Shown here piece after piece: positions 3,202 through 47,450 of a stretch of 64,000 bases of DNA; the stretch's first letter is position 1, and every line of letters starts with the position of its first letter. A model generated the notes under the pieces. The model had not been told where the DNA came from, ran no database searches, and saw nothing but the letters and a program-made list of their open reading frames with translations. The translations under genes were made by a program, and so were the position numbers. The stretch spans positions 53,100-117,099 of the forward strand of contig RQOL01000813.1 of assembly GCA_013076295.1 (NCBI GenBank). Direction: 5' to 3'. Source of the stretch: Sanderia malayensis. Lineage: Eukaryota; Cnidaria; Scyphozoa; Semaeostomeae; Pelagiidae.

Positions 3202-3337
3202 CTGCAGATGAAAAAATATTGACAATTTGGTAAATATAATAACTGGTTTGGGTTTGGTTGTTGTTAATTTTCAATAGTTTTATAATATATAGTTATTTTA
3301 TTTTGAAAAGATTAGCAGAAATTATAGAGTTGTGTAC

Positions 3338-6106: not shown

Positions 6107-7129
6107 TTCCCCCTGGCAAGCGACCACCCAGCGCCCACCCTGGCGCCCCCCTAAAAGCCGTTTCTTCTGAAAGTGAAAAAATGAATTCATCAAGGTACTT
6201 TAAAAACACTAAAACTTTCAAATTAAATTAACGTGGCCAACTTTTGTCCTACACAACCCACGAAAATATCAACATGAAGCTAATAGCTTGGCGAACATTT
6301 ATCGAAAGTATTTAGGTGAAAAAAACAAAGTTTTGGCCGGTTAAAAATTAATTTTCGCAAATGCAAAACACACGCGTGTTGGGTGAAAATTTCGTGTTTT
6401 CCAGCAAAATCCAAACTCGGCTAAAACTGTCCAAAAACAGAGGAAAATCAACAAAACAAAAAAAACAAAGCCATATAACTTTAGTTCTTGTATAAATAAA
6501 CAGTTATCGAAAGTTTAAATGGAGAAAATTGGCCCAGAACGACCCGAGTAAATCAAAATTGTCTTCGTGTTTTGGTTAGGCCCTCGAGCCGAAAGAAAAA
6601 CGTGAGGTTAAACAAAACAAAACTCGTGCTATTTTCAGCTAAAAACAATTGAATAAAGGAAATACTTTGAAATAATTGTCCACCAATTGTCTCCACAGGT
6701 CTTGACAACAATTGACAGGTCTTTACAATTGATTTCCGACATGTATTCATGCTTAAATCCGAGCAACTTGCCACCCGTTCAACTAAAAAAACACGTGCTT
6801 CTCCCTGCTCGTTTTGCATCTCATTAACTCCGTCCTCGGAACTTTCTAGAAAGTCGGAACACAAAATGGGCCATAACTCCCGAACAGCTTGGAGTAGAAA
6901 TTAGCCACACACTTTACTGTCATCAGGACAATGCAGCGATCATTTCTATACCCATTTCCACCCTTATTGACCCCCAGGAAAGAAGCCTTTTTGATCACAA
7001 CGAAATTCCTTTGATCCCATTGTTTGGTCGAAGGTTGCCATTGTTTTTTCAAACGTCGATTGTTCCGGAGACAATGGGCATTGTTCGCAGTCGGCGGGTC
7101 ATGTGTCGACGTAGATTATATAATGGAGA
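6107..7129 (-). repeat. Helitron 5-prime core c1 (short type III)
   Basis: This is the 5-prime terminal region of unit A. It begins at the CTTCCCCCTGGC side without the first internal repeat that longer cores have, as do c7 and c12. It holds a perfect heat-shock-type site GAAnnTTCnnGAA at 6839-6851. Its 5-prime end is TCTCCATTATATAATC, a variant of the TCTATATATACTA end. Confidence 0.8.
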
Positions 7130-8380
7130 CTAGCCGGGGGCGCTCGCTTCGCTCCCTCCCCGGAGCCCGTCAAGTACACAAAGCTTAATCTGGTTGGCGC
7201 GCTTTGCGCGCTGCATTCGCTGCTGCTCATGCCCATACATACATACATACCCTACAATACATACCCTACAATACATACCCTACAATACATACCCTAAAAT
7301 ACATCCCTTACAATGCATACCCTACAATACATACCCTACAATACATACCCTACAATAAATACCTTACAATACATACCCTACAATAAATACCTTACAATAC
7401 ATACCCTACAATACATACCCTACAATACATACCCTACAATACATACCCTACAATACATACCCTACAATACATACCCTACAATACATACCCTACAATACAT
7501 ACCCTACAATACATACCTTACAATACATACCCTACGATACATACCCTACGATACATACCCTACAATACATACCATACGATACATACCCTACGATACATAC
7601 CCTACGATACATACACTACAATACATACCCTACAATACATACCCTACAATACATACCCTACAATACATACCCTACAATACATACCCTACGATACATACCT
7701 TACGATACATACCCTACAATACATACCCTACAATACATACCTTAGAATACATACCCTACAATACATACCCTACAACACATACCCTACATAACATACCCTA
7801 CAATACATACCCTACAATACATACCCTACAATACATGCCCTACATAACATACCCTACAATACATACCCTAGAATACATACCTTACAATACATACCCTACA
7901 ATAAATACCCTACGATACATACCCTACGATACATACCCTACAATACATACGCTAAGATACGTACCCTACGATGCATACCCTACATAACATACCCTACAAT
8001 ACATACCCTACATAACATACCCTACTACACATACCCTACAATACATACCCTACAATACATACCCTACAATAAATACCATACAATACATACCCTACAATAA
8101 ATACCCTACAATACATACCCTACAATACATGCCCTACATACATACCCTACAATACATACCCTACAATACATACCCAGAATACAAACCCTACAATAAATAC
8201 CCTACAATACATACCCTACAATAAATACCCTACAATAAATACCCTACAATACATACCCTACAATAAATACCATACAATACATACCCTACAAAAAATACCC
8301 TACAATACATACCCTACAATAAATACCATACAATACATACCCTACAAAAAATACCCTACAATACATACCCTACAATACAT
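7130..8380. repeat. U2 terminal L block and minisatellite
   Basis: The L block 7130-7234 has the inner hairpin with a TTT loop (GGCGCGCTTTGCGCGC). It joins directly to the 14-bp array with only a short (CATA) run between. Variants CCTTACAA, CCCTACGA and CAATAAA are clustered, not random. Confidence 0.9.
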
Positions 8381-9877
8381 ACTACGACGCAACATTTCTA
8401 AAGAAAGTAAAGGTGGGAGGTCGGATCTTGCCCCCTGGCAATCGACCGCCCAGCGCCCACCCTGCCGCCCCCCTGAAAGCCGAAGGTTGATAGCTTCAGT
8501 GTGAAGTTTGAAAAAAAAAGTTCCTTCAAAAATTTAATCAATCCTGGAAAATTTAAACTCAATCTCTAATAAAAATTATATCAAACTGTAGCTGAGGAAA
8601 CAGCGAATCCGATAAAAGTATTCACATTTCTTAACAGTGTTGTTTTGAATTTTAAGGGAGTATTTAGTGGAGCCCAACAACAAAGGCGTGAAAAAATTTA
8701 TTCAGCAGCCAACTTTAAAAACACAAAAATTCCCCGAACTTGGTCAAACTTTGTCCATTTTAACTCAAATTACACCAACATGAAGCAGTTACCTTGGCGA
8801 AAAAGTATCGACAGTAATTGGGTGCATTTGAAATGCTTTTCGCAATTTTAGTTGGGTATTTTTGAAGCTCAAGACATTATTTTCTTGATCAAAAATAGCC
8901 GTGAAACCAAACCCATGCAAAAAATAGGAATTGAAACACGATTCACCAACTTTCAAATTCAATTAGCGTGGTCAATTTTTGTCCTACACACCCCATGAAA
9001 ATATCAACATGAAGCTCATAGCTTGGCGAACATTTATCGAAAGTATTGGGGTGAAAAAAAACAAAATTTTGGCTGGTTAAAACTTAATTTTCGCGAATGC
9101 AAGACACACGCGTGTTGCGTGAAAATTTGGGGTTTTCCAGCAAAACCCAAACTCGGCCAAAACTGTCCAAAAACAGAGAAAAATCAACAAAACAAAAAAA
9201 ACAAAGCCATACAACTTTAGTTCTTGTGTAAATAAAGAGTTATCGAAAGTTTAAATGGAGAAAATCGACCCAGAACGACCTGAGAAAATCAAAATTGTCT
9301 TCGTGTCTTGGTTAGGCCCTCGGCTGAACACAAAAAACATGAGGTGAAACAAAACAAAACTCGTGCTATTTTCAGCCGAAAACAATGAAATAAAGGAAAT
9401 ACCTTGAAATAATTGTCCACCAATTGTCTCCACAGGTCCTGAGAACAATTGACACGTCTTTACAATTGATTTCCGGCACGTATTCACGTTTAAACCCGAG
9501 CAACTTGCCGCCCGTTCAACTACGAAAACACCTGTTTCTCCCTGCTCGTTTTGCATCTCATTAACTCCATCCGGGGAACTTTTTAGAAAGTCGGAGCACA
9601 AAATGGGGCATAACTCCGGAACCGCTGGGGTTAGAAATTAGCCAAATAGTACACTGTCATCAGCACAATGCAGCGATCATTTCTATACCAATTTGCACCC
9701 TTATTTGCACCCCAAAAAAAAGCCTTTATGGATACAACGAAATTCCTTTGATCCCATTGTTTTTCGAACGTCGATTGTTAAAGAGACAATGTTTTTCGAA
9801 CGTCGATTGTTCCGGAGACAATGACCCATTGTTTGGTCCCTCCGGGTCACGTGTGATCACATTTTATTATATATAGA
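8381..9877 (-). repeat. Helitron 5-prime core c2 (long type)
   Basis: A full-length core of about 1.5 kb. It has two diverged internal direct repeats of ~230 bp, centred on TGAAGCAGTTACCTTGG (8779 on) and TGAAGCTCATAGCTTGG (9009 on). The heat-shock-type site near 9575-9590 has one change (TTC to TTT). Confidence 0.8.
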
Positions 9878-11055
9878 CTAGCCGGGGGCCCGGTCGCTAC
9901 GCTCCCTCCCCGGAGCCCCCCAAGCAACAAAAGCTTAATGTGGTTGGCGCGCTTTGCGCGCTGCATTCGCTCCCGCTCATGCCCATACATACATACATAC
10001 ATACATACATACATACATACATACATACATACATACATACATACATACATACATACATACATACATACATACATACATACATACATAAATACATGGGCCG
10101 GGTTCGGTCACTTCGCTCCCTCCCCGGAGCTCGTCAAGTACACAAAGCTTAATCTGCTTGGCACGCTTCGCGCACTGCATTCGCTGCCGCTCATGCCCAT
10201 ACATACCCTACAATAGATACCTTACAATGCATACCCTACACTACATACCCTACAATACATACCCTACAATACATACCCTACAATAAATACCCTACAATAC
10301 ATGCCCTACATAACATACCCTACAATACATACCCTACAATAAATAACCTACATAACATACCCTCCAATACATACCTTACAATACATACCCTACAATACAT
10401 ACCCTACAATACATACCCTACAATACATACCCTACAATACATACCTTACAATACATACCCTAAAATACATACCCTACAACACATATCCTACATAACATAC
10501 CCTACAATACATACCCTACAATACATACCCTACAATAAATACCTTATAAAACATACCCTACAATAAATACCCTACAATACATACCCTACAATGCATACCC
10601 TACATACATACCCTACAATACATACCCTACAATACATACCTTACAATACATACCCTACAATACATACCCTACGATACATACCCTACAATAAATACCCTAC
10701 AATACATACCCTACAATACATACCCTACATACATACCCTACAATACATACCCTACAATACATACCCTACAATACATACCCTACGATACATACCCTATAAT
10801 AAATACCCTACAATACAAACCCTACAATACATACCCTACATACATACCCTACAATACATACCCTACAATACATACCCTACAATACATACCCTACGATACA
10901 TACCCTATAATAAATACCCTACAATACATACCCTACATAACATACCCTACCATACATACCCTACAATACATACCCTACATTACATACCCTACAATACATA
11001 TTCTACATAACATACCCTACTATACATACCCTACAATACATATCCTACAATACAC
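9878..11055. repeat. U3 L blocks, (CATA)n and minisatellite
   Basis: The terminal L block is 9878-9984, followed by about 110 bp of pure (CATA)n. An internal L copy is at 10095-10198, and the 14-bp array runs to 11055. The internal L copy lacks CTAG and begins GGGCCGGG. Near 10720-10960 a ~110-bp block of units repeats three times as a higher-order repeat. Confidence 0.9.
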
Positions 11056-12309
11056 ACTACGACGCAACATTTCTAAAGAAGGTAAAGGTGGGAGGTCGGA
11101 TCCTCCCCCCTGGCAATCGACCGCCCAGAGCCCACTCTGCCGCCCGCCTGAAAGCCGAAGGTTGATAGCTTCAGTGTGAAGTTTGAAAAAAAAGTTGCCT
11201 TCAAAAATTTAATCAATCCTGGAAAATGTAAACTCAATCTCTAATAAAAATTATATCAAACTGTAGCTAAGAAAACAGCGAATACGATAACAATATTCAC
11301 ATTTCTTAACAGTTTTGTTTTGAATTTTTAGCGAGTATTTAGTGCAGCCCAAGACAAGAGCCGTGAAAAAATTTATTCATCAGCCAACTTTAAAAACACG
11401 AAATTTCCCCTAACTTGGTCAAAATTTGTCCATTTTAACTCAAATTACACCAACATGAAGCTGATACCTTGGCAAATAATTATCGAAAGTATTTGGGTGA
11501 AAAAAACAAAGTTTTAGCAGCTTAAAATTTAATTTTCGCGAATGCAAAATACACGCGTGTTGCCTGAAAATTTCGTGTTTTCCAGCAGAACCCAATCTCG
11601 GCTAAAACTGTCCAAAAACAGAGGAAAATCGGCAAAACAAAAAAACAACCCCAGATAACTTTAGTTCTCGTGTAAATAAACAGTTATCGAAAGTTTAAAT
11701 GGGCGAAATCGGCCCAGAACGACCAAAGAAAATCAAAATTGTCTTCGTGTTTTGGTTAGGCCCTGGAGCCGAAAGAAAACGTGAGGTTAAACAAAACAAA
11801 ACTCGTGCTATTTCCACCCAAAAACAATTGAATAAACGAAATACCTTGAAATAATTGTCCACACATTGTCTCCACAGGTCCTGAGAACAATTGACACGTC
11901 TTTACAATTGATTTGCGGCACGTATTCGTGCTTAAACCCGAGCAACTTGCCGCCCGTTCAACCAAAAAAACATGTGCTTCTCCCTGCTCGTTTTGCATCT
12001 CATTAACTCCGTCGTCGGAACTTTCTAGAAAGTCGGAACACAAAATGGGCCATAACTCCCGAACGGCGTGGAGTAGAAATTAGCCAAATACTTTACTTTG
12101 ATCAGCACAATACAGCGATCATTTCTGTACCAATTTGCACCCTTATTCGCACCCCAAGAAAAAGCCTTTATGATATCAAGCCCCGTTCCTTTGATCCCAT
12201 TGTTCAGTCGAAGGTTGCCATTGTTTGGTCGAACGTCGATTGTTCAAGAGACAATGGAGCATTGCTTGGCGGGTTGGGGTCACGTGTGACCATAGAATAG
12301 TATATATAG
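11056..12309 (-). repeat. Helitron 5-prime core c3, internal-repeat hybrid
   Basis: This core lacks one of the two ~230-bp internal repeats. It starts as the first repeat (TTACACCAACATGAAGCTG) and, after TATCGAAAGTA near 11485, continues as the second (TTTGGGTGAAAAAAACAAAG). This is what unequal exchange between the two repeats would give. The heat-shock-type site is intact near 12018-12030. Confidence 0.78.
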
Positions 12310-13362
12310 CCTCCCCGGAGCCCCTCAAGCAACAAAAGCTTAATGTGGTTGGCGCACTTGGTGCGCTGCATTCGCTCCCGCTCATGCCCATACATACATA
12401 CATACATAAATACCCTACAATATATACACTACAATACATACCCTACAATACATACCTTACAATACATACCCTACAATAAATACCCTACAATACATACCCT
12501 ATATAACATACCCTACAATACATACCCTACAATACATACCCTACAATACATACCCTGCAATACATACCTTACAATACATACCCTACAATAAATACCCTAC
12601 AATACATACCTTACAATACATACCCTACAATACATACCCTACATTACATACCCTACAATACATACCCTACAATACATTCCCTACGATACATACCCTACAA
12701 TAAATACCCTACAATACATACCCTACATAACATACCCTACCATACATACCCTACAATACATACCATACAATACATACCCTACAATACATACCTTAAAATA
12801 CATACCTTACAATACATACCCTACAATACATTCCCTACAATACATACCCTACGATACATACCCTACGATGCATACCCTACAATAAATACCCTACAATACA
12901 TACCTTACAATACATACCCTACAATACATACCCTACAATACATACCCTACAATACATTCCCTACGATACATACCCTACAATAAATACCCTACAATACGTA
13001 CCCTACATAACATACCCTACCATACATACCCTACCATACATACCCTACAATACATACCATACAATACATACCCTACAATACATACCTTAAAATACATACC
13101 TTAAAATACATACCCTACAATGCATACCCTACAATACATACCCTACATAACATACCCTACAATACATACCCTACGATACATACCCTACATACATACCCTA
13201 CAATACATACCTTACAATACATACCCTACAATACATTCCCTACAATACATATCCTACGATACATACCCTACGATACATACCCTACAATAAATACCCTACA
13301 ATACATACCTTACAATACATACCCTACAATACATATCCTACAATACATACCCTACAATACAT
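12310..13362. repeat. U4 truncated L block and minisatellite
   Basis: The L block remnant is 12310-12389, with the hairpin changed to GGCGCACTTGGTGCGC; both arms changed together. It is followed by only four CATA units and then ~970 bp of the 14-bp array. Part of this array (13000-13360) is nearly the same as the right end of the U8 and U9 arrays. Confidence 0.88.
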
Positions 13363-14670
13363 ACTACGACGCAACATTTCTAAAGAAAGTAAAAGTGGGA
13401 GGTCGAATCCCCCCCTGGAAAGCGACCACCCAGCGCCCGCCCTGCCGCCCCCCTGAAAGCCGCTTCTGAAAGGTGATAACTTCAGTGTGAAGTTTGAAAA
13501 AAAAGTTGCCTTCAAAAATTTAATCAATCCTGAAAAATTTAAACTCAATCTGTAATAAAAATTATATCAAACTGTAGCTAAGGAAACAGCGAATTCGATA
13601 AAAATATTAACATTTCTTAACAGTGTTGTTTTGAATTTTAAGAGACCATTTACTGCCGTGAAACACAAAACCCGTGAAAAAATTTATTCATCAGCCCACT
13701 TTAATAACACAAAATTTCTCCTAACTTGGTCAAAATTTGTCCATTTTAACTCAAATTACACCAGCAGGGAACTGATAACTTGGCGAATAAGTATCGAAAG
13801 TAATTGGGTGCATTTGAAATGCTTTTCGCAAATTTAGTTGGGTATTTTTGAAGCTCAACACATGATTTTCTTGATCAAAAATTGCCTTGAAATCAAACCC
13901 CTGGAAAAAAACAGCAATTTAAACACGATTCACCAACTTTCCAATTCAATTAGCGTAGCCAATTTTTGTCCTACACACCCCACGAAAATATCAACATGAA
14001 GCTAATAGCTTGCGAACATTTATCGAAAGTATTTGGGTGAAAAAAAACAAAGTTTTGGCACGTTAAAAAATAATTTTCGCAAATGCAAATCACACGCGTG
14101 TTGCTTGAAAATTTAATGTTTTCAAGCAAAATCCAAACTCGGCTAAAACTGTCCAAAAGCAGAGGAAAATCAACAAAACAAAGCCATATAACTTTACTTC
14201 TTGTGTAAATAAACAGTTATCGAAAGTTGAAATGGAGAAAATCGGCCCAGAACGACCCGAGAAATTGAAAATTGTCACGTCTTTACAATTGATTTCCATC
14301 ACGTATTCACGCTCAAACCCGAGCAAGTTTGCCGCCCGTTCAAATAAAAAAACACGTGCTTCTCCCTGCTCGTTTTGCATCTCATTAACTCCGTCCTCGG
14401 AACTTTCTAGAAAGTCGGAACACAAAATGGGCCATAACTCCCGAACCGTTTGGAGTAGAAATTAGCCACATACTTTACTGTGTTCAGCGCAATGCAGCGA
14501 TCATTTTGATACCAATTTGCACCCTTATTGACCCCCAGGAAAAAAGCCTTTTTGATCACAACGAAATTCCTTTGATCCCATTGTTTTTTCGAACGTCGAT
14601 TGTTCAACAAACAATAGCCCATTGTTCACAGTCGGCGGGTCACGTGTGATCGTAGAATAGTATATATAGA
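13363..14670 (-). repeat. Helitron 5-prime core c4 (type I)
   Basis: Nearly identical to c8 and c9. All three share a deletion of about 190 bp around 14270 (AAAATTGTC joined to ACGTCTTTAC), compared with c2 or c5, which marks a common ancestor. A perfect heat-shock-type site is at 14400-14412. Confidence 0.82.
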
Positions 14671-16602
14671 CTAGCCGGGGGCCCGGTCGCTACGCTCCCT
14701 CCCCGGAGCCCCCCAAGCAACAAAAGTTTAATGTGGTTGGCGCGCTTCGCGCGCTGCATTCGCTCCCGCTCATGCCCCTTTCAACCCCACGTACAATGGG
14801 TTAGCTCGCTGCGCTCGCCTGTGGTTGGCGCACTTCGTGCGCTGCATTCGCTTATGCTCATGCCCATACATACATACATACATACATACATACATACATA
14901 CATACCTACCTACATACATACATACATACATACATACATACATACATACATACATACATACATACATACATACATACATACATACATACATACATACAAA
15001 CATGGGCCGGGTTCGGTCGCTTCGCTCCCTCCCCGGAGCCAGTCAAATAGACAAAGCTTAATCTGGTTGGCGCGCTTCGCGCGCTGCATTCGCTGCCGCT
15101 CATGCCCATACATACATACATACATACATACATACATACCCTACATAACATACCCTACAATACATACCCTACAATACATACCCTACAATACATACCCTAC
15201 AATACATACCCTACAATACAAACCCTACAATACATACCCTACAATACATACCCTACAATACATACCCTACAATACATACCCTACAATACATACCCTACAA
15301 TACATACCCTAGAATACATACCCTACAATACATACCGTATAATACAAACCCTACAATACATACCTTACAATACATACCCTACAATACATACCCTACAATA
15401 CATACCCTACTATACATACCTTACAATACATACCCTACAATGCATACCCTACAATACATACCCTACAATACATACCCTACAATACATACCCTACAATACA
15501 TACCCTACAATACATACCCTACAATGCATACCTTACAATACATACCCTACGATACATACCCTACGATACATACCTTACAATACATACCTTACAATACATA
15601 CCCTACAATACATACCCTACATAACATACCCTACAATACAAACCCTACAATACATACCCTACAATACATACCTTACAATACATACCCTACAATACATGCC
15701 CTACATACATACCCTACATACCATACCCTACGATACATACCCTATGATACATACCCTACCATACATACCCTACAATACATACCCTACAATACATGCCCTA
15801 CATACATACCCTACAATACATACCCTACAATACATACCCACAATACATACCCTACAATACATACCCACAATACATACTCTACAATACATACCCTACAATA
15901 CATACCCTACAATACATATCCTACAATACATACCCTACAATACATACCCTACAATACATACCCTACAATACACACCCTACAATACATACCCTACAATACA
16001 TACCCTACAATACATACCCTACAATACATACCCTACAATACATACCCTACAATACATACCCTACAATACATACCCTACAATACATACCTTACAATACATA
16101 CCCTACAATACATACCATACAATACATACCCTACAATACATACCCTACACTACATAACCTACAATACATACCCTACCATACATACCCTACAATACATACC
16201 CTACAATACATACCCTACAATACAAACCCTACAATACATACCCTACAATACATACCCTACAATACATACCCTACAATACATACCCTACATACATACCCTA
16301 CAATACATACCCTACAATACATACCCTACAATACATACCCTACAATACATACCCTACAATAAATACCCCTACAATACATACCCTACAATACATACCCTAC
16401 AATACATACCCTACAATACATACCCTACAATACATACCCTACAATACATACCCTACAATACATACCCTACAATACATACCCTACAATACATACCCTACAA
16501 TACATACCCTACAATACAAACCCTACAATACATACCCTACAATAAATACCATATAATACATACCCTACAAAAAATACCCTACAATACATACCCTACCATA
16601 CA
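14671..16602. repeat. U5 L blocks, (CATA)n and long minisatellite
   Basis: L block 14671-14777 runs into a second partial L segment ending at 14865. That segment includes CCCACGTACAATGGGTT, also found in unit C near 47398, and a hairpin with paired arm changes (GGCGCACTTCGTGCGC). Then come (CATA)n, a third L block 15001-15107, and about 1.5 kb of 14-bp units. The long open frames here (14-residue period YIPYNTYPTIHTLQ) come only from the 14-bp period. Confidence 0.92.
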
Positions 16603-18065
16603 TACTACGACGCAACATTTCTAAAGAAAGTAAAGGTGGGAGGTCGGATCTTCCCCCCTGGCAATCGACCGCCCAGCGCCCACCCTGCCGCCCCCCTGAA
16701 AGCCGAAGGTTGATAGCTTCAGTGTGAAGTTTGAAAAAAAAAAGTTGCCCTCAAAAAATTTAATCAATCTTGGAAAATTTAAACTCAATTTCTAATAAAA
16801 ATTATATCAAACTGTAGCTAAGAAAACAGCGAATCCGATAAATGTATTCACATTTCTTAACAGTGTTGTTTGAATTTTAAGAGAGTATTTAGTGCAGCCC
16901 AAGACAAAAGCCGTGAAAAAATTTATTCATCAGCCAACTTTAAAAACACAAAAATTCCCCTAACTTGGTCAAAATTTGTCCATTTGAACTCAAATTACAC
17001 CAGCATGAAGCAAATACCTTGGCAAATAAATATCGAAAGTAATTGGGTGCATATGAAAGCTTTTCGCAATTTTAGTTGGGTATTTTTGAAGTCCAAGACA
17101 TGATTTTCTTCATCAAAAATAGCCGTGAAATCAAACCCGTGAAAAAAATAGCATTTAAAACACGATTCACCAACTTTCAAATTGAATTAACGTGGCCAAT
17201 TTTTGTCCTACAGAACCCACGAAAATATCAAAATGAAGCTAATAGCTTGGCGAACATTAATCGAAAGTATTTGGGTGAAAAAAACAAAGTTTTGGCAGGT
17301 TAAAATTAATTTTCGCAAATGCAAAACACACGCGTGTTGCGTGAAAATTTCGTGTTTTCCAGCAAAACCCAATCTCGGCTAAAAACTGTCCAAAAACAGA
17401 GAAAATCAACAAAACAAAAAAACAAAGCCATATAACTTTAGTTCTCGTGTAAATAAACAGTTATCAAAGTTTAAATGGAGAAAATCGGCCCAGAACGACC
17501 CGAGAAAATCAAAATTGTCTTCGTGTTTTGGTTAGGCCCTCGAGCCGAAAGAAAAACGTGAGGTGAAACAAAACAAAACTCGTGCTATTTAAAGCCAAAA
17601 AACAATTGAATAAAGGAAATACCTTGAAATAATTGTCCACCAATTGTCTCCACAGGTCTTGACAACAATTGACACGTCTTTACAATTGATTTCCGGCAGG
17701 TATTTCCGTTTAAACCCGAGCAACTTGCCGCCCGTTCAACTAAAAAAACACGTGCTTCTCCCTGCTCGTTTTGCATCTCATTAACTCCGTCCTCGGAACT
17801 TTCTAGAAAGTCGAAACACAAAATGGACCACAACTCCCGAACCGTTTGGAGTAGAAATTAGCGGAAAGCTTTACTGTGATCAGCGCAATGCAGCGATCAT
17901 TTTGATACCAATTTGCACCCTTATTGACCCCCAGGAAAAAAGCCTTTTTGATCACAAACGAAATTCCTTTGATCCATTGTTTGGTCGAACGTCGATTGTT
18001 CAAAAGACAATGGGCATTGTTCACAGTCGGCGGGTCACGTGTGATCGTAGAATAGTATATATAGA
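16603..18065 (-). repeat. Helitron 5-prime core c5 (long type)
   Basis: Full-length core with both internal repeats, most like c2. The minus strand keeps the two overlapping frames seen in other cores, but the first has an indel near 17960. The heat-shock-type site is kept near 17800-17815. Confidence 0.8.
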
Positions 18066-36210: not shown

Positions 36211-36630
36211 TTACAGGACTTCTTGGAAGACAATATTTTTTGTCTTCATGTGTGTTTCCTCTGGGAGGAATACTTTAAGCCCGTCAAATGATGTTGCTCT
36301 TGACATGGCCACATATAACTGACCATGTGTGAACACGGGCTCTGGTAAATACAAACCAACATACCTGAGAGATTGTCCCTGTGCCTTGTTGATAGTAAGG
36401 CAGTATGCTAGTCTGACTGGAAATTGCCGTCGTTTGATGTTGAACGGCATCTCAGTGTCTTGTGTTGACAATGTTATTCTGGGAATCATGACCTGCTGGC
36501 CTCTGTGTTCCTTCGTGATGATCTCTGCTGTGATCACGTTCCGTCGGAGATGGCGTACAATAAGTCTTGTGCCATTGCAAAGACCTTTCTTTGGATTTAG
36601 ATTCCTCAGAAGAATGATTGTTGCACCAAC
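36211..36630 (-). CDS. Helitron B last exon, helicase C-terminal motifs
   Basis: 420 bp, the same length as in unit C. It encodes VGATIILLRNLNPKKGLCNG, then RRQFPVRLAYCLTINKAQGQ and LYVAMSRATSF, the PIF1 motif V/VI region with the arginine finger. It ends QEVL and a stop at 36213-36211. The splice acceptor, CATTAG in unit C, reads TATGG here, so normal splicing should fail. Confidence 0.85.
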   Translation of the reverse strand, partial: VGATIILLRNLNPKKGLCNGTRLIVRHLRRNVITAEIITKEHRGQQVMIPRITLSTQDTEMPFNIKRRQFPVRLAYCLTINKAQGQSLRYVGLYLPEPVFTHGQLYVAMSRATSFDGLKVFLPEETHMKTKNIVFQEVL

Positions 36631-36740
36631 CCATAATAAGGAATGTTCGAGATTACGATGTGTATCATCGAAGGACCATTATTAATATTTAAAATAAGTG
36701 TAGAATTAATGTATAATTAGTACATATAGGTAAATTATAC

Positions 36741-37770
36741 CTTGAGTCTAAGTCGATGTAATGGCATTCCGTTAGGAGTTAGATTGTTGATAAACTCAAT
36801 TGGATATGCCGCCTCCTCATCTGGATCCTCTGTTATCACACTGTCTGTGCTGTAGTATGTTCTGTCAGGAGTCTGTAGTCTTTCCAGAATGATGTCATTG
36901 ATTTGATGTGAGAAGTCATTCTTTGGAGTAAGACAACAACGTTCTGACATGGTTACCGGATCCAGCATGAGGTGGGACTGTGGTGTATTAGGCTGGCGAT
37001 ATATGAAGTTGAGCATTTCCTCTTGCGAAGATGTGCATATTTGATATGGCAAAGTGATATTGTCAAGTGCATCATGTTGTTCTTGTTTGTTGCCGAGTCT
37101 TAGAAGCCATTCTGAGAATTCTCTGTAAGATTCATCTTGGACAGCTCTCATGTTTGTGTGCAGGCGATGTTGTTGAAACTGTGCCCACAAATCACTGATT
37201 TGATATGATTTAAGACTCTCTGATACGATTTGCTCTCTTCCTGCCTTGGGAACAACCGGTAGAACTTGTCTAAAATCGCCACGAAGTAACATGAATTTGC
37301 CACCAAATGGCTTGTCAACTCTTGTGATATCCCGAAGCAGTCTGTCAACTGCTTGTAATGCCAATGCTGGTATCATTGAAGCTTCATCCCATATGAACAG
37401 GGTTGTTTCACGCAACACTTGCGCTCTTCGGCTCGTCTCTTAACATTGCATGTTGATTCCAGCTTCAATGGTATTGGAATTTGGAATTGTGAATGCGATG
37501 TTCTGCCATTGATAAGCAGTGTTGCTGCAATTCCTGACCAAGCCATACACTGAACTTTGTGCCCAGAAGTATTGAGGTGGCGAACCAACGTGTTGTAGAG
37601 AAATGTTTTCCCTGTGCCAGCTGGTCCGTCGAGAAAGTGACAGTTCTGCTCTGATTGTGCCTCAATTGCTTCAATAATGGCTGTGAAAACAACTCGTTGT
37701 TCTGGATTCAATGCAGCTCGCATTTGTTCTCCTTGCTCTCTTTCAATTTCAACATCCATGTGATCTTCCT
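36741..37770 (-). CDS. Helitron B exon with Walker A/B helicase core
   Basis: 1030 bp between TTTTCAG and CAAG|GTATAA. Walker A GPAGTGKT lies near 37609-37632, Walker B LFIWDEAS near 37378-37402, and a GDFRQ motif near 37265-37285. The frame changes near 37440 because one base is missing relative to units A and C. The residues after Walker A match PIF1 helicases of animal Helitrons. Confidence 0.88.
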
Positions 37771-37863
37771 CTGAAAACATAACAATAGTTTATTTTGGTA
37801 TAAGTAGAAGTATATCTTGGCTAAATTATACAGTGATTGTCATCATGTTAAATTGTAAATCAC

Positions 37864-38999
37864 CTTGTTCGGGAATGACAAAGTCGGCCGGTAGCTGAGG
37901 AAGGTGGTCGTAATTCGTGATGGACAAACCATGAACCTTCAAATTGTTGTCAATATCATGTAGACATTGATACATGTGTCTGTCTTGAAAGGTTATGTCT
38001 GGATTGTTGAGTTGATCACGTCTGACAAAGTCTTCACTCAACGCTTCTTTGAAGGTGTCGAAGAGTGTTCTTATGTCTGAAGGCGTTTGAAAGAGTAGCA
38101 ATGTGGCAAACAACTGTCTGAGTTGTGGTGGCATATTAAAGATGACTGCGTCTTGTAAACAGCGTGTGATTTCGGCATCATCTTCGGAATTTTTGCTCGC
38201 AAGGTCTAGGCTGCACTTGAGTTATTCTACCAATGACTGGCATTATTCTTCGTTGTCTGGGTGTCCATGTTTTTGAACGCTCCTGGAAGACATAGTGCTC
38301 TGGTATCTCATGGTAGAGGTACTGATGTGCAGCTGGATCTTGCTGGTTGAGTTCAAACCATGCTGTGAGTGTTGTTCTATCACCAATGTTGTTGAGCCTT
38401 TGTTCGTCATCATTGTCATGAAAGATGACTTGTTGCTCAAAGGGTAGATGAACAGAAAGCCGTTTGATTATGTGGCTTTTTTCGTGCATGGGGAACTGCA
38501 GAAGCCGATGGACAGCTTCATGTGGTCCAACATATCTTGCGTTGATGTATTGGCGCACCTCGTCGTGTTCAATGTCTTGAGGTACTTGCTGTTGATTTTC
38601 TTCAAGAACTTCAACATGTGCCATATCGTGACCTTTGTGGATATATTTGAAAATGTACTTCACGCTTTTAACAGTACTGCATATTTCCAGGTTGATATGG
38701 CACTGATATTTGATGAGTAGGTGTCTGTTGTGTGGCACTACCCAGGTATCATCCAAAATGCGATTATTCACATTGACTGGATGAAGACCGCGTCGTCTGT
38801 AGAGAGGATAGCCGTTGACATTAATTTGAGTTTCAGCAACTTGTTCTTTCGGAAAGTGCTTTTTGCATTTGTTATTTTCCATGCACACGCATCGAGGATT
38901 TAAAACTCCACAGGGTCCATGTGTCATGTGTTTTAGGACCAACTTGTGGTATTTTGAATCCTGTGGGTCTGGAATCTCTGCTGATATCAGTTGATCCAC
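37864..38999 (-). CDS. Helitron B exon with Rep paired-Tyr motif
   Basis: Starts VDQLISAEIPDP after acceptor ATCAG. It has the cysteine-rich HGPCGVLNPRCVC and the motif KYIFKYIHKG, with the two tyrosines at codons 38657-38655 and 38645-38643, three residues apart. Helitron Rep uses such a pair to cut and join single strands. Near 38200 about 38 codons present in unit C are missing and the frame shifts; the remainder continues as DDAEITRC and ends VIPEQ. Confidence 0.88.
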
Positions 39000-39120
39000 C
39001 TGATAATGAATATGATAATCAACAATTTTATAATAGAAATGACGTACAGAATAGTTGTACTGTGCATTGGATATAAATTTAAAAATGAGAGAAAGAATTA
39101 TTAGTGTTTGCAAATATTAC

Positions 39121-40304
39121 CTGTTGTGGTGTTCGTGGTTTATCAGCTTGCGAAAGAAACAGGATCATGTGTGCGTGTGGTAGTCCTCTCTTCTGAAATT
39201 CTATGACATACACATGTGCAGTGACATGTCCAAGAATGTTGTTGTGTAGTATGTCTTCGAGTAGTTCTTTGAGTTTCAGTTGAAATACTCTTGTGACAAT
39301 GTCCGGTCGATCATTGGCCGTCTGATACGGATGAATATTTTCTTCAATCTCCTTCCATTTAGGATTGGCAGTCATTGTGAGGAAGATGTCTGGCTTGCCA
39401 TACTTCCTTACGATTGTCATTGCATCTTGAAAATGTTGATACATGTTTCTTTGGCTGCCTGGAAAGGATGATGGTAGAATGATAACACGGCCAACATCGA
39501 TATGGATGGGCTGATTCGGATTATTAGCCCTGGCCATCTGGTTCTCAAGTTCAGCTCCTCTGTTGAGATGATCCATCAGGCCTCGATACGTGTCAACACG
39601 AAGTTGACGTTGATTGTTCATAATCCAGCTCAGTTTATTGCCTTCTACTTTTGTATATGCATCTACCAGATACTGTTGAAAGAGAAGTGACGCAATGTGG
39701 ATGGTTGAGAATGCGTCCCTGACCTGGATTCTGTATGAGTAGTATTCGGTGAGGGTTAGTTTTGTACGACGTTGACGATTGTTGTGCTGTTCACCTCCTA
39801 CGTTTGCTGTTGGCAATCGTTGAAGGTCCAAACTGTATCCGCTGTCACCGTGAAAGAACATCAATGGATACGTAAGAGGATCGGCAATGGGATTAGTTGC
39901 GTAAATCTTCATGAGATTACCGCGTCTTGTTTGAACTTGCAGTTCTCTGTCGTCAGGATTTGGTGCACCTCCATTTTGTACAGTATATATAGCTGCAATT
40001 TCTCTGGCAGTTGGATTATCGTATCTGCGATCTTGTTGTGGGCGACCTGTTATGATCATTTTGAATGTCGGAACAGGCTGATTGTTTGCAATAGCTTGCT
40101 GCCGCTGTTCCTCCAATATTTCACCCATGCTTCGATAATGTTGCGCAAATCGATTGACTGCCATTAATTCATGCTGTAGAAGTGCAACAATGTCCAAATG
40201 AAGACATCGTTCTCTTGCAGTGTTTTGCCGTTCCTGCAATGCTTGTTGCGTATCCATGATGTAAAGTTCTGCATATTTTCTGGATATGTCTGTTTCTGTT
40301 ACAC
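39121..40304 (-). CDS. Helitron B exon with HUH nuclease motif
   Basis: 1184 bp, fully open. It starts GVTETDISRKYAELY and has the Helitron_like_N region, motif FLTMTANPKW, and the metal-binding HUH motif as GLPHAHMI. Counted from the in-frame Met at 40257 these are at about residues 292-301 and 361-363. The exon ends TPQQ at donor CAG|GTAATA. It is the best kept catalytic exon in the window. Confidence 0.92.
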
Positions 40305-40429
40305 CTGTTAATGATCCAACAAACCATAAGTTTGGGAATTAGAAATTACACTGCATCAACAATAATGAGGGAGTTGATATTTAATGTTGAATGGAATTAT
40401 TTTAAGTGTAAACATATTCTATCAGTTAC

Positions 40430-41566
40430 CTGTCATGTGATATGCCTTCCCGTGAATTGTGATCACTGGTGGTCCAGCTCTAGCATGATGTACAATATTA
40501 GCCTTCCATGATGCCATGGCCATTAATGAGTTGTATTGGCGGAAGTGCTTTAAGAAATACTTTGATTCAGCAGTATCACCAGTATATAAATGCATGACAC
40601 TGTTTGGAGGTGGTTGAATTGCATCCAGAGTGATTAAACCTCCCATGCAACATTTGTTGTAACGTTTTTTTGTGTTAAGTTCTTCTTTGAAGTATTTTGC
40701 ACCACAATGAATGCATGTTCTGTTCATCTTGTTCAAGTGGTGTGGTAGTGGGGAGAAGGGGATGAGGTTTTCAGCTTCAATGTTCCCAGGGACAGGATTG
40801 CCAACTTGGATTTGCTGATCTTCAAGGTGTTCTGGTATCTGATTTTCATCAGGTACTGGAACTGCGTGTTGCATCTCAATGTCTGCAGGTTGTTCTCTTG
40901 CTTGAAGCTCTTGGTTCAGAATGGAAGCTCTTGGTTCTGAATGGGAAGCTCTTGGTTCTGAATAGGAAGCTCTTGGTTCTGAATAGGAAGCTCTTGATTC
41001 TGAATGGGAAGCTCTTGGTTCTGAATGGGAAGCTCTTGGTTCTGAATGGGAAGCTCTTGGTTCTGAATGGGAAGCTCTTGGTTCTCAATTGGAAGCTCTT
41101 GGTTCTCAATTGGAAGCTCTTGGTTCAGAATAGGAAGCTCTTGGTTCAGAATGGGAAGCTGTTGGTTAAAAATGAGAAGCTGTTGGTTCAGACTGGGAAG
41201 CTGTTGGTTCAGAATGGGAAGCTGTTGGTTCAGAATGGGAAGCCGTTGGTTCAGAATGGGAAGCCATGGGATCTGAATGGGGAGCTGTGGGATCTGAATG
41301 GGAAGCTGTGGTTCCATGCCCATCTGCATTGGCTGTATCTGTAAAAGGGGATACTGTGCAGGAAACGGTTGATATTCAGGGGCTTCTAGCTGACGGTTTT
41401 CAAGCTGCAATTGCTGAAGATCGTTCGCTGCTGCAAGTTCTGCATTGGTGGACTCTGCCTCCGGAAGCTGAGGTTGTTCGTTCTGCTGTCTTTGACGCTG
41501 ACGATACTGCCTCATCTGATTTCTACGTCCCACTCCTGTGATACTTCTCTTGACCTTGCGCGGCAT
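40430..41566 (-). CDS. Helitron B first exon, Q-rich repeats and zinc-finger-like domain
   Basis: Starts MPRKVKRSITGVGRR at 41566. After a Q/P-rich part come 18 repeats of seven residues (QELPIQN type), then CIHCGAKYF, YNKCCMGG and LYTGDTAESKYFLKHFRQYNS. One G of a GGG run is missing near 40921, so the repeat frame ends in a stop at 40918-40916 and the downstream part is in another frame. Units A and C spread this region over four exons; here it is one. Confidence 0.85.
40916..41305 (-). repeat. 21-bp coding minisatellite in Helitron B exon 1
   Basis: Eighteen tandem 21-bp units encode LPIQNQE and variants (LPILNQQ, LPIENQE, LPIQIPQ). The seven units at the gene-distal end are identical at protein level, the others drift, which suggests recent growth at one side. 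Period three keeps the frame. Units A and C lack it. Confidence 0.93.
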
Positions 41567-44500
41567 GGTGCAAGTTGTAATGTAAAAAAGAAGTATTAAA
41601 GTATGAGATATACAATTAGGCCAAATTATTGTAAATGTTATTGCTTGTTGACAATGGTCTTAATAGTAACAACAATGGAATAATTATGGCCTTGTGTAAA
41701 GCTAAAACAAAAAGAAATAAATATGATATTTTTCAAGGGTTCCATAATGATAAGGTAAAATTAGTACTAAAGTAAATGGAAAAGTATTGCTATATTAATA
41801 TAATGTATGTTAAATGAATATACTTACGTTTAAACTGTGGTCGTTCTGTTGGGTAAACAGTCACTAAAATGGAATAGAGTAAATTTATAGTTGAAAAAGA
41901 AATGAATAATGGACAAAAGCTCAGAATACCTGAATAAATAAAATGAACTGTTTGAATCAAGTGCAGCAGTTTTTTAATAATCTGTTGAAACACGATTTGA
42001 GAATTTGTTGTTAATAAACTTACTATCCATGAAAGAAACACTGAATTAACGAAATAGTTTCTTGTACAGAGGCTCATTTGGAAAGAGAGAAATAAAACAC
42101 AAAAATATAAGTTTATTGTGGAGATGAGTTTGTGAAGAGAAGTGTCCGTTATTTGAAAATAGATTTAGCTGGGCCTTTATTTATAAGAAAAACACACAGT
42201 TAAAGAGTAAAATAGATCAATGAGCAAGGAAAACTGTCGTCAAACAATAAATATCTTACCGAGCCTTGTGTCTTTAAAATCTATGGATAGAAACAAAGAG
42301 AAATCAGAATAGTTGTAAACTTAAAATATTTGATAAAGAAATGATACCTGCACAACACGTAACCCGTCTTTGCAATTAAAAGCATACGAAAAAAACAATA
42401 ATTTTCGTCTTATGAGGCGAAGTAGTGATAAGTAATTGGCTAGCTTGTAGTTATTAAACATGTTGAAAGTAGGTATACTTACTCAGCGATAAATAAGATA
42501 AGATAATTATAGCCTTTAGTAAATTTGGCCCGGTTAAAAATAGACAAAGTCTAATTTTAGAGGCGGGGATTTCTATTGTACTACATCGCCTCTGTGATGG
42601 TTTAACGCATCACGTGACAATAAGGAGGGAAAATTCTCGTGGAAAGGGATTTCCCCTTCATCCTTCTGACTTTTAAAGGTGGGAAGGAGAAGATTAGCAC
42701 GTGACAGACTGGTTGTCTCAAAGAGATAAGAGATAAAATAAGAAACATTATAATTAAAATATTATGTTATGTTCATTTTACTGAATATTTACAGTTGGTT
42801 TAACAATATTAATACTTTTTAAACAATATATTATCATTCAATTGGGCAAGTTTATGGAGATCACAGGGTTCTGATGCATCAAGTTGATAAAAAGTGGCCG
42901 ATAGCGTCTGGAGTGTAAGCCTCGTTAACACTATGGGGCAGGCACGTGTGCACGTCTCCTCTGTCCCTGCAAGGAGAAGACAAAGGAAAAGAAGAAAGAC
43001 AAATGAAACATTGTAACAATCTCTCACGTGCCAGACAGAAGTTATTCGCGAAATTATTATTATTATTATATTGTAAAATGAATTTGAAAAGAAGCCTCGG
43101 CCTCGGCAGATAGCGTTGACGATGAAGAGAGCCGATCAAATCGGAGGAATAACATAAATGGTAATAATATAATTTGATCTTTGTCAATCTTTTCAATCAA
43201 ACACCATTAAGCAAACTATAATGAGTTATGGTGTGTTTAACTTGAATTGTTATCTATCAATTATAGAATTTCGACATGTTGGAAGAGAATATGCATCCTT
43301 TCATTAAAAATAGTCAACATGCATGGCAGGCCTGGGTAAGTTTGTTACTCTAGTTTTTGTATGAAATAAGACAAAAAGGCAAATTCAAAGCAGTTGCATA
43401 GGAATAATGGAAATCTGCTCCCCTTCTGTGTTTCGGTGGGCTAGCTCATACTGCTATAAGCAATGAGTTGGCATTGCTGTAACCTGGAAAGTATTCTGAA
43501 TTATTGAAACTCTGTGTTTGGTTAATGGTTTCACTTAATTTTATTGTTGCTTGCAGGTGCTGATAGCTGAACAGAAAAGGAAAGGATGTCCCTACTTGGT
43601 TTTTTGTGTGGTAAGTGTCTAATTAATATGTGGGTTTTAAAATTAGAACAATAATATATCTATGGAACTGAATATTACGATGAACTGAATTTGGAACTAT
43701 TTAAACAGGAAAAAGCATTGACCATGCATAATATGAGAAATTTGTGAGATTGATTGCTAGGCCGAAAAAAGGTAATTATTATTAGTATGAATAATTCATG
43801 CATGATCAAGGCCACTAAGCTACAAAACAACAGAACTACAAACTATCAAAGTACATAAGTTAACTACAAACTATCGAACAGCATAACTACTTAACTACAA
43901 ACTATTTACAAACTATCTACAAACAGTAAAAACCTGCATATAACATCCTCCATCTTATTTTGTAGGCTATTTTGGTTGTGAAGAATGAAAAACAATGGGT
44001 AAACTATAAGACAATATCATGTAAATATGACTATGAAAAAATACATTGAAAAATGGAATATTAGGTGTTAGGTTGTTAAAAGTAGGAGGTTGTTATATGC
44101 AGGTTTTTACTGTATAACTATGTACAATATCTACATATTAAAATATGAGATTTTCACAATTTTGGCACCACGTGCCAATTGGGCCTGCTCAGCCGTCAGT
44201 TGGTGGGAAGGGTTTTGGGCAACCACCTTCCCACCCTCCTTTTTGCCAGGCTTTCTTTTTTGTTGGCCTTTGCCAATTCTAATGAAAGCCTCTTTTTGTG
44301 TTCTGTAAATTAACACACATAAGATTGATATGTTAAAGGTTGTTAAAATTTTGTAAAAAGATGCAATGCCATTGTATAAGTGTGTATGATAAACATGTGA
44401 AATACAATGTAAAAAGGTGTACATACACAATTTCATTTGTTGGGATTCTTCTCCCAGTGGCAAATACAAAATTAAAACGTTTGCCGGCCAATTCCGGGAA

Positions 44501-45719
44501 TTGGTCGGCACAGTTTCTCTTTAGAGTAGAGATACTACTATATGTTATTTCCTAGGAGAAAAAGAGGATGCAAAGAATAATGGTTGATAGCAGTTATGAA
44601 GATGGGAAATTTACTAATAAATATATTAATGTATTTAATATAATTACTTTGGTTTCTTTTCCGAGGGTTATAGCAATTTGATTGTCCTTTGGCTTTGCAT
44701 TTGCCATGTTGAAATGTTCTTAAAATGAAATGTTGAAATGCATGTAAAATTAGTATAGGTAATAAGGTTAATTGAAAATGCTGGTAAAGGAGAAATATGA
44801 AGAATTCTAAAATGTTGTATATCTCAATTAACAATATTGTGATAATATTGTCGGAATTTGCGGGAATTAATATATGAAGAGCAATGATTGAAAATGGTAA
44901 TAATAGGAAAGATACTCACAAATCTTTGATTTGGGCGCGTAAGACAAAAGTAAGGAATGCTGAAGTAAACAAAGGTAAGTAGTGTCAAAAATTGGTACAC
45001 AATAACTGTAAACTTGTTATTAATAACTATGGATACATTTAAGGACCTTTTAGTTAATCTGCGTTTGTTTTCTTTAATGTTAAAACTTGGAAAAGATATT
45101 TAGAAAATTTTTTCACTTACTTCAAATTTGTACGATCGAGATCTGAAAGGTTTTTCGCGCGCTCAAGTAAAAGCTATTGTCTTTCGAAACTATAGCAACA
45201 ATATCAAGATGGCCCCACGAAAAAGAATGAGATCGAGGTCCTGCGGACGTATGGAATCAATGTGGTGTTGGGTCAATTGTGATGTTGCAATAATTCTGCA
45301 TAGCCAAAGTAAGAATGGCAAGGACTATAGAATAGAGTGAACTACGAATTGGTGTAAAAATATAGAGGGTATGTTAAGTTGAATAATAGTAACGAATGGC
45401 ATAAGTAGCCATAAATTGGGATAAAATTGCAGTTGACTCCCACACTAAATAATGCTATGATGATTCAGTAAATTTCTTTCATTTTGCTACAAATTGCTAT
45501 GAAATTTAAACACTATTTAGTATCAAAATTCACATGCTAGAAGTTATAATATATTTCTGACCTTATTATATATTATTTATTGTTTGATGGATTGTTATTT
45601 GATTGTCTTTCTTTATTATGTAAACAAAATACAATATTTTCTCAATCACTGTTTTGAATGTGTAGTTTTCTGCAAGGTATATAACTTGTCTGTTCTCTAC
45701 TGTACCATACTATAAATTT
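41567..45719. other. 5-prime flank of Helitron B
   Basis: No long recognised gene. Minus-strand mini-exon signals: 41828-41868 and 42256-42295 lie between AG acceptors and GTAAG donors and may be 5-prime UTR exons. A minus acceptor with a long pyrimidine tract precedes 42966. A minus frame near 44131-44511 includes KGQQKRKPGKKEGGKVV, and 44482-44510 is a 29-bp near-perfect palindrome. A GGGATTTCCCC site (42646-42656) lies between two CACGTG boxes (42611, 42698), a possible promoter. Confidence 0.35.
43267..43747 (+). other. candidate plus-strand three-exon mini gene
   Basis: Exons 43267-43335, 43557-43610 and 43709-43747 have good borders (CTGG|GTAAGT, TTGCAG|GTGC, GTGTG|GTAAGT, AACAG|GAAA) and share one open phase. 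From ATG 43276 they would give about 50 residues (MLEENMHPFIKNS start, TMHNMRNL end). I do not recognise it. It is short, so chance is possible. Confidence 0.28.
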
Positions 45720-46475
45720 CATTATGTTATACATTACTATAAATTAATATACATACTATACTATACTTACTATTACTACATACTATACATTACCATACCT
45801 ACTATAAAAAGATCCTATACCCACTATACCTACTATACAAACATACTATACCTACTCTACCACTATAAAAATACTATACCTACCATAAAATATACTATAC
45901 CTACTATACAAACATACTATACCTACTCTACCTACTATAAAACATATACTATACCTACAAACATAAATACATACCTACATACCTACCTACATACCTACAT
46001 ACATACATACATACATACATACATACATACATACATACATACATACATACATACATACATACATGAGCCGGGTTCGGTCGCTTCGCTCCCTCCGGAGCCC
46101 ATGAAGCAAGAGAAGCTTAATGTGGTTGGCGCGCTTCGCGCGCTGCATTCGCTTTCGCTCATGCCCATACATACATACATACATACTTTACCTACATACT
46201 ATACCAACATACTATACCTACATACTATACCAACATACTATATACCTACTATAAAAACATACTATACCCATACCTACATACTATACCATATACTATATAC
46301 CTACATACTATACCTACATACTATACCAATACTATACCTACTATACAAACATACCATACCTACATACTATACCTACATACTATAACAACATACATATAGA
46401 TACCTACTATAAAAACATACTATACCTACTATACCTACTATAAAAACATACATAACTACTATAATAACATACAAA
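45720..46475. repeat. Helitron B array: ACTATACC repeats, (CATA)n and internal L block
   Basis: A diverged array of ACTATACCTACAT-type units with (CATA)n at 45985-46063 and an L block at 46064-46166 (without CTAG). Position and order match the arrays of the other units although the repeat unit differs. It shows the array is a lasting part of the element. Confidence 0.88.
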
Positions 46476-47287
46476 CACTTGTCGAAAGTTTAAATGAGGA
46501 AAATGGTGCAAATAGCGCCTGAAAAATTCATAACTTTGACTTTGTTTTCATTGGGCCTAAGCGTTGCAAGCATGCCGAAGCAACCCTACTGCAAAAACTA
46601 TAACTATTTCAATTCAAAATTCAAAACAAAGCTATCACCTGTGTTCCCAATTGTTTCCTGCAACTGTCCAGGGTCTTTGAAACAATTAGCAGCTCTTTAC
46701 AAAGATAATTCAGCTCGTAAAACACTTTGAAGGGCGCCTTTGTGTGCAAAAAAAAACATGCGTCTTCTCCAAAAGTACCTGCTGCAACCGATGGCGAATA
46801 ACGAAAAACGACGGAAAATTCGCATGGGTCGCCTGCAAGCCGAGGACGAAAAACGAAATTGGATCGACATCCACGTGGGTCGCGCGAAAAGAGCCAATCA
46901 AATTGCAGGAAAAGGCGAAACGGGTCACGTGAAGAGCGAATACTCTTTTCGAATTTGGAATCGGGGACGCTAATTTGGAAGTTTCGCCAGCGTAAACTGT
47001 CGTTTTTTCGTGATAGCCAATTAGGCGAACAAAAATAAAGAATTTCCAAACCTTTTAGTCGAAACTGTGAGATCTCATATAGATAACTTTTTGGTTCAGC
47101 CGGCAAAGAACAACTAACTTAAAAATAGGGCAGATTGAGGGTCTCCAAAAAAAGCCTTTATGGATACCTCGTTCGCCGTTTCGGCCCATTGTTTTGGGGC
47201 GTTCGACCTATTGTTTCGGGTCGAATCTATTGTTTCAGCGTAGTTTCGAGCCCTTGTCACGTGACGACGCAGAATAGTAATATTAGA
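46476..47287 (-). repeat. diverged Helitron 5-prime core c11
   Basis: Only patches align with the other cores: GTCGAAAGTTTAAATGAGG, AGCCTTTATGGATAC, and the 5-prime end TCTAATATTACTATTC with CACGTG near it. The heat-shock-type site of the other cores is not present. A minus-strand frame runs 47106-46621 without known domains. Confidence 0.75.
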
Positions 47288-47450
47288 CTAGCCGGGGGCG
47301 CTCGCATACGCTCGCTTCCGGAGCCCGTCAAGTACAAAAAGTTTAATGTGGTTGGCGCACTTTGTGCGCTGCATTCGCTAACGCTCATGCCCTTTCCCAC
47401 CCCACGTACAGTGGTTTGGCTCGCCCTCGCTCCCCTGTCTATCTATTGTC
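47288..47450 (-). other. terminal L block and 3-prime end of Helitron C
   Basis: L block 47288-47391 with CTAG and an inner hairpin in which both arms changed (GGCGCACTTTGTGCGC). It is followed by CCCACGTACAGTGG, the extension also seen in U5 near 14785. Confidence 0.75.

Follow-up and report, generated by a model that had tools for sequence, protein, structure and literature searches.

Rolling-circle transposition predicts tandem products. Xiong, Dooner and Du are said to have found, in 2016, that many of the centromeric Helitron arrays of plants have several 5' ends and a single 3' end, and that most Helitrons are solitary. The arrays considered here are those of the jellyfish Sanderia malayensis, and above all the one carried by a stretch of 64,000 nucleotides (positions 53,100 to 117,099 of contig RQOL01000813.1, assembly GCA_013076295.1), referred to below, as a whole, as the window. 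The plant centromeric arrays have been cited as tandem insertions of truncated Helitrons, and tandem or nested Helitrons are also cited for bat, Drosophila, rice and maize; from fungi, single instances are described, namely three tandem copies in Metarhizium and the Fusarium element FoHeli4 lying 2 bp upstream of part of another (PMC5148889). Data-mining points to head-to-tail junctions and to tandem arrays in the genomes of plants and bats (PMC5876387). Circles of the bat element Helraiser carry exactly the CTAG|TC join (PMC4778049), its transposase, when offered single-stranded oligonucleotides in vitro, cleaves at this join, on the plus strand alone (PMC5876387), and read-through occurs upon terminator failure (PMC4778049, PMC5876387).

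Direct joins in the window and across the genome

The units of the window are canonical Helitrons, autonomous-type and non-autonomous, with TC...CTAG ends. On the minus strand, CTAG directly abuts a TC end at ten places (+7129, 9877, 14670, 18065, 21026, 23453, 27342, 30470, 33444 and 47287), every one of which had been listed in the original prediction, and TCT starts the 5' end at all ten. A damaged eleventh join had been noted near 12309; at +12309, GGGAGG does replace CTAG and the T of TC is gone. When up to three mismatches are allowed, a 20-base version of the join matches the window seven times (six intact joins and the damaged one), versus no match in 100 dinucleotide shuffles. The predicted count of three gene-carrying and nine short units, all in one orientation, also holds: the short units (2361–3889 bp each) span 7130 to 33444, and one gene-carrying unit is complete (13,843 bp, 33445–47287), the other two being partial (below 7129 and above 47288). 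Both termini are intact in eight of the ten complete units, and the remaining two share the damaged join. The units and the uppermost join are as follows.

47288..64000, minus strand: upper autonomous-type unit, 3' part of about 16.7 kb, with CTAG at 47288-47291
47284..47291, minus strand: join CTAG|TCTA (ATATTACTATTC) between the upper gene-carrying unit and the 13,843-bp unit
33445..47287, minus strand: complete autonomous-type Helitron unit, 13,843 bp, TCTAATATTACTATTC...GATGACCCCTAG, recognized by joins at both ends and by its domains
30471..33444, minus strand: short unit 1, a hybrid; 5' part 78-95% identical to the downstream neighbour, 3' part 99-100%, with the switch within the 14-bp satellite
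27343..30470, minus strand: short unit 2, type A, bounded by intact joins
23454..27342, minus strand: short unit 3, type A, sharing 0.989 identity with unit 2 in the first 380 bp, with a longer satellite
21027..23453, minus strand: short unit 4, bounded by joins
18066..21026, minus strand: short unit 5, bounded by joins
14671..18065, minus strand: short unit 6, bounded by joins
12310..14670, minus strand: short unit 7, a hybrid; first ~1790 bp type A at ~99%, divergent after; its 3' terminus is the damaged one
9878..12309, minus strand: short unit 8, 5' T missing at the damaged join
7130..9877, minus strand: short unit 9, bounded by joins
1..7129, minus strand: third gene-carrying unit, 5' part, TCTCCATTATATAATC running down from 7129, recognized by joins and reading frames

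The same joins recur across the genome, which comprises 184,004,477 bases on 918 contigs (C numbers denote contigs and L numbers extracted loci); the repeat counts are lower bounds and may include uncollapsed alleles. The 3' end GCCCCCGGCTAG occurs at 1134 places and is followed by T at 1120 of them: by TC at 837, a part of which may be host TC, and by T and another base at 283, the next base not being T at the other 14. The base adjoining the exact 5' end TCTATATATACTATTCTACG on its upstream side is G in 225 instances and something else in 30 (25 A, 5 T). Inspected by eye, these 30 comprise 19 with Helitron sequence upstream, mostly shortened or lengthened joins, 10 with other DNA (7 A, 3 T) and one at a contig end (L010). 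For this 5' end, joined copies thus far outnumber host-flanked ones, and exact CTAG was present, by eye, in 97 of the first-listed 100 G-preceded cases. On the 5.9-Mb scaffold C303, the left edge of an array (C303:5284555) reads A|TC, with non-Helitron DNA upstream. The genome search proposed earlier has turned up both kinds of product, joins at hundreds of places and isolated copies mostly flanked by A and T.

Several of these places have unusual features. L009 (C43) and L029 (C763), among the 19, show a partial second 5' end before TC and, further upstream, identical non-Helitron DNA, and are perhaps one locus seen twice. At L070 and L071 (C109), two near-identical cases 2.8 kb apart, CTAG is followed by helicase-like coding DNA (the IWDEAS region, by eye), as if the element had landed in the helicase gene of another copy. 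Unusual joins are shared among the small contigs C31, C92, C125, C133 and C147 (L041, L042, L052–L056), as uncollapsed alleles or copied segments; C31 and C147 share two, with similar spacing.

It is scarcely credible that the arrays are an assembly artefact, with repeats collapsed or misjoined. The region is repeat-rich, there is one 100-N gap in the C303 array, and some small contigs, such as C31 and C147, may be uncollapsed alleles; however, the 64-kb window contains no N, and the joins recur across many contigs. Moreover, the published S. malayensis assembly (184,371,355 bases, 970 scaffolds, 0.03% gaps), which is likely the one used here, was built from PacBio reads (PMC7305137). The N run in question, at C303:5321328, lies inside an 8.9-kb unit.

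Of 44 pairs of neighbouring TC joins separated by less than 6 kb, 43 share a strand (98 of the 837 TC joins were examined). Genome-wide, no exact 5'-5' join of the commonest 5' end was found, and a pattern search found no exact 3'-3' join, the pattern being one that misses imperfect inverted forms such as those at L080 and L081. This bears on the idea that each unit inserted independently at the A|T formed by the 5' boundary of a resident Helitron (host A, element T), in which case joins without an intervening base would result from ordinary target choice. T does follow nearly all 3' ends, as counted above, and A precedes seven of the ten array-type 5' ends with non-Helitron upstream DNA (T the other three) as well as the C303 array edge. 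A|T is, however, identical on both strands, so that about half of the joins would be expected to be inverted, versus 225 G-preceded direct joins and no exact inverted ones found. Insertion at A|T next to an old copy, without regard to orientation, is therefore very unlikely, and is disfavoured unless another step imposes orientation. At L014, L065 (C255) and L022 (C509), a short inverted repeat of the Helitron 5' end (TATCTATATATAATAAAATGTGATC...) lies between CTAG and the next TC end.

Unlike neighbours, hybrid units and a solo sister lineage

Compared along 380 bp of their 5' ends, units have a mean identity of 0.888 among the 36 pairs of the window array, 0.907 among the 21 pairs of the C303 array and 0.899 in the 63 pairs that combine one unit from each, and adjacent units (0.904, 12 pairs) are no closer to each other than all within-array pairs (0.895, 57; permutation p 0.17). 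These figures cover 9 of the 11 5' ends in the window and 7 of the 9 in C303, the distinctive 5' end W0, the damaged 12309 end, C303:5306046 and C303:5328856 having been left out. As judged from these identities, the two arrays are samples of the family rather than runs of one element. Near-identical successive units, as expected of a rolling-circle concatemer, are absent from both arrays, with the exception of two adjacent type A units in the window; the type A 5' ends at 30470, 27342 and 14670 have mutual identities of 0.989–0.995.

The joins themselves are mixed in the same way. In a set of 34 joins, the type of the 3' end was not associated with that of the 5' end following it (Mantel r 0.045, p 0.35). 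An apparent association (r 0.637, p 0.002, n=40) was due to one distant row, L077; without it, r fell to 0.129 (p 0.11, n=39), without L068, L054 and L056 as well, the last two being near-copies, to 0.075 (p 0.25, n=36), and the set of 34 results from dropping two further near-duplicate joins. Among the window and C303 joins only, no association was seen either (r 0.13, p 0.19, n=19; without W0 and C8, 0.23, p 0.12, n=17). The GATGACCCC-type 3' end occurs five times in the extracted sequence; three of these ends (window 33444, L031 and L088) are joined to a TC end, always the 5' end of a short unit of another type, and at the remaining two (L020, L047) a T and other DNA come next.

All nine short units contain a 14-bp satellite of 0.9–2.3 kb, often with CATA repeats near the 3' end of the unit. 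The tracts are:

27642..29167, plus strand: 14-bp satellite (ATACATACCCTACA)n, example
7243-8382, 10199-11054, 12394-13364, 15108-16605, 18544-19568, 21535-22466, 23750-26046, 30769-31980: other 14-bp satellite tracts

Satellite-related repeats were noted over 7243–31980 and 62922–63122 of the window, and the strong GC skew of the region is probably due to the 14-bp satellite. In two units, the satellite is also where the sequence type changes. U30471_33444 and its neighbour U27343_30470 are unlike in their 5' parts and 99–100% identical in their 3' parts (over the final 1.4 kb when aligned as a pair, about 0.85 kb in a three-way alignment), the switch in U30471_33444 lying near unit base 1600 (pairwise) or 2124 (three-way), within a satellite that occupies bases 1469–2664. 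U12310_14670 follows type A over about 1790 bp before diverging, its satellite starting at unit base 1314.

One locus has a different composition. On C45, seven copies of a composite (the query included) are 99–100% identical over 500 bp and spaced 4.24–4.34 kb apart, as seen among the 40 of 1909 candidates that were scored. The composite consists of an autonomous-derived piece and a short unit, linked via a damaged CCAG|TC; a C522 copy is 98% identical, and at three places in C744 and C767 there is a match of 84–85% to almost all of the query. Judged by its repeats, the C45 array resembles the product that bypass of an end, followed by concatemer formation, would give. The original prediction had named three routes to the arrays, read-through, insertion of concatemers and repeated insertion at the same end. 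Because units are equally unlike within and between arrays, and neighbours are no closer, plain read-through of one element does not explain the window array; concatemers are supported at another locus, C45, and repeated joining at the same end is possible if it is orientation-specific.

A modified version, in which rolling-circle read-through from a circle or donor produced one-element concatemers that were inserted once and later mixed by unequal crossing-over in the satellites, is doubtful but deserves weight. The C45 composites and their C522 relative, the 98.9% identity of the two adjacent window units over 380 bp, the position of the hybrid breakpoints in the satellite and the known circles carrying a CTAG|TC join (PMC4778049) are all in its favour. 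It is at odds with the resemblance of adjacent units, which is no greater than that of others, and with two arrays as mixed as the family; nor would satellite mixing easily place a 13.8-kb unit with no 14-bp array listed between units of other types on both sides.

A sister lineage in the same genome is found mostly as single copies. Its 3' end, the CTTGCCCCCCTCCGGG or solo type, occurs at 230 exact places, mostly host-flanked where compared, and is followed by TC in 2 of 7 cases, versus 96 of 111 for the other 3' ends (Fisher p 0.0015, table 2,5 / 96,15); this comparison covers C7–C160, where the lists are complete, and one solo-type place (C112), absent from both lists, was dropped. It had been reasoned that isolated copies with ends other than TC and CTAG would speak against the proposed termini. 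Nine complete isolated copies of 0.7–1.2 kb (L039, L040, L046–L049, L062, L066 and L069) all run from TC (TCTAAT...) to CTAG; A precedes TC in seven (G and T in the other two), T follows CTAG in eight, and the 5' end resembles that of the 13.8-kb unit. Eight have the solo-type 3' end or a near variant, and the ninth, L046, has a shortened one. Terminator strength was considered as a cause of the arrays and rejected: DNA folds of four 3' ends, calculated as a hairpin check (-11.1, -6.6, -9.6 and -3.0 kcal/mol; z -0.70, 0.29, -1.14 and 0.64 versus shuffles), do not convincingly separate array from solo ends.

The satellite distinguishes the two lineages in part: among hand-picked loci, 12 of 20 of the array type have the 14-mer in the 1.4 kb preceding the 3' end, versus 2 of 16 of the solo type, and at one of these two, L068, the 14-mer is upstream of the element's own 5' end and thus outside the element. 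This difference would be consistent with the integration of excised circles into resident copies by homologous recombination, which would give one orientation, a ready-made CTAG|TC join and hybrids on both sides. The single orientation with no exact inverted joins found, the switches of both hybrids within the satellite and the uncoupling of 5' and 3' types within units (r -0.02, p 0.50, n=17, W0 left out) point the same way. This route is a serious rival but nevertheless unlikely: it yields joins of an element with itself, yet in each of the three cases where the GATGACCCC-type end is joined to TC, the partner is of another type. The within-unit association is, moreover, positive with W0 included (r 0.65, p 0.028, n=18), a result that disappears once W0 is left out.

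Gene-carrying units

The Helitron identity and the direct joining of units without a host base in between, as originally proposed, are supported by the exact joins together with Rep and helicase domains. The 13,843-bp unit encodes a Helitron_like_N domain (E 7e-62, 39082–40338), PIF1 (37376–37789 and 36735–37418) and Pif1_2B (36214–36678), with an HAH motif near 39186, the two-tyrosine motif YIFKY in 38181–39116 and the Walker A motif GPAGTGK near 37627; its coding pieces are spread over several frames, through introns or decay. Several hallmarks of a canonical Helitron are present: an HUH and two-tyrosine Rep with a Pif1-type helicase, in reading frames that are in pieces, a 5' TC end, a 3' CTRR end (CTAG) and an A|T target. 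Among the matches to the Rep piece with a named organism, the best, at 55% identity, belongs to the jellyfish Rhopilema esculentum. In the 13,843-bp unit, Tandem Repeats Finder (score 200) shows no 14-bp array, only a 13-bp repeat and others. A 21-bp tandem repeat at 40904–41314, in the reading frame just upstream of the Rep part, encodes a repeated peptide.

The upper unit has Helitron_like_N (57746–58450) and PIF1 (55614–56219) domains and aligns piecewise, at 83–94% identity, along a complete 17.1-kb unit of C303, which itself has a Helitron_like_N piece, a PIF1 domain and HAH and Walker A motifs; from this alignment, the 5' TC end of the upper unit probably lies about 120 bp past the edge of the window. 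Within this unit, the plus-strand open frame at 53669–54220 resembles what we take to be the C-terminal part of a non-LTR reverse transcriptase. The third unit (1..7129) has Helitron-like reading frames at 3–3721, by eye; a Pfam scan of two of its frames (506–1207 and 1989–2600) gave no match.

Formation of the arrays and comparison with known systems

The most likely account, held with about even confidence, is that the transposase joins different copies head to tail, and that the arrays are modified by recombination and, at times, by concatemers. The reaction that closes Helitron circles, here acting between two elements, would link a free CTAG 3' end to the TC 5' end of a different, chromosomal copy, and every added unit would leave a fresh join that could be used again. 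Since the enzyme cuts a single strand, precisely at the join, the newcomer would end up facing the same way. Within the 14-bp satellite of the short units, recombination would swap 5' and 3' halves, and occasionally a two-unit composite may move as one element and be laid down as a homogeneous concatemer. The exact joins, the single orientation, the mixed neighbours, the partners of the GATGACCCC-type end, the A|TC edge, the hybrids and the Helraiser work support this account. The data are the products of joining and not the reaction itself, and we infer from them both the role of the transposase in the mixed joins and the order of events.

Several observations weigh against such joining. No reciprocal pair, as proof that a unit had inserted into the 5' end of a resident copy, was found: 2–4 bp of the 5' end are missing at 14 joins, seven of them reading CTAG|TATATACTATTC, and six have an extra TCTA, and these two half-signatures never occur on one contig, so that small indels or alternative start points are equally likely. 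Nested insertion at TCTA|TATATA in a resident 5' end was rejected, since the 14 and 6 places never pair on one contig. At L080 and L081 (C848), an imperfect inverted 3' end, CTGGGGGCCC, directly follows CTAG. If recombination shuffles halves, concatemers of hybrid elements could also yield mixed joins, and both the C45 array and the adjacent pair of type A units have the appearance of local copies rather than of strangers brought together.

More tentatively, under the joining account, the CTAG|TC join may be a self-renewing, oriented landing site: the transposase would nick any join or resident TC end and insert an unrelated member of the family, thereby making a new join, and the lineage would have shifted from scattering to chain-building while its satellite-less sister still scatters. 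With hundreds of precise joins beside a solo sister lineage in one genome, read-through, targeted joining and recombination can be told apart, and the number of direct, same-facing joins makes chain formation directly testable. The arrays also show a route from transposon to satellite-like array DNA.

Tandem Helitrons were already known, and the arrays described here are a new form of them. No report of full-length mixed arrays with this many joins was found in the literature searched, most of it outside subscription journals, and titles and the beginnings of abstracts on Helitrons in jellyfish or Scyphozoa mention nothing of the kind. Like the plant centromeric arrays, there explained by rolling-circle replication, the jellyfish arrays consist of tandem Helitrons; unlike them, they include full-length gene-carrying units, most complete window units keep both termini, as noted above, and the pattern of several 5' ends with one 3' end is not seen in the window. 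Tandem copies, insertion at or near the 5' end of another element and composites are shared with the cases from bat, Drosophila, rice, maize, Fusarium and Metarhizium (PMC5148889). DINE-1/Helentron elements and the satellites borne by Helitrons in Drosophila and oysters, as far as the sources available describe them, are similar in that Helitron-like elements carry and spread tandem repeats, the inner repeat being the tandem unit there, whereas in the jellyfish whole elements are in tandem too. There is also a detailed likeness to Helraiser/Helibat of bats, with its TC and CTAG ends, A|T target, exact CTAG|TC join and RepHel transposase (PMC4778049, PMC5876387). The Helraiser join belongs to a circle formed from one element, in cells or in vitro, whereas the jellyfish joins are fixed at hundreds of chromosomal places and, in the arrays examined, mostly connect unlike units.

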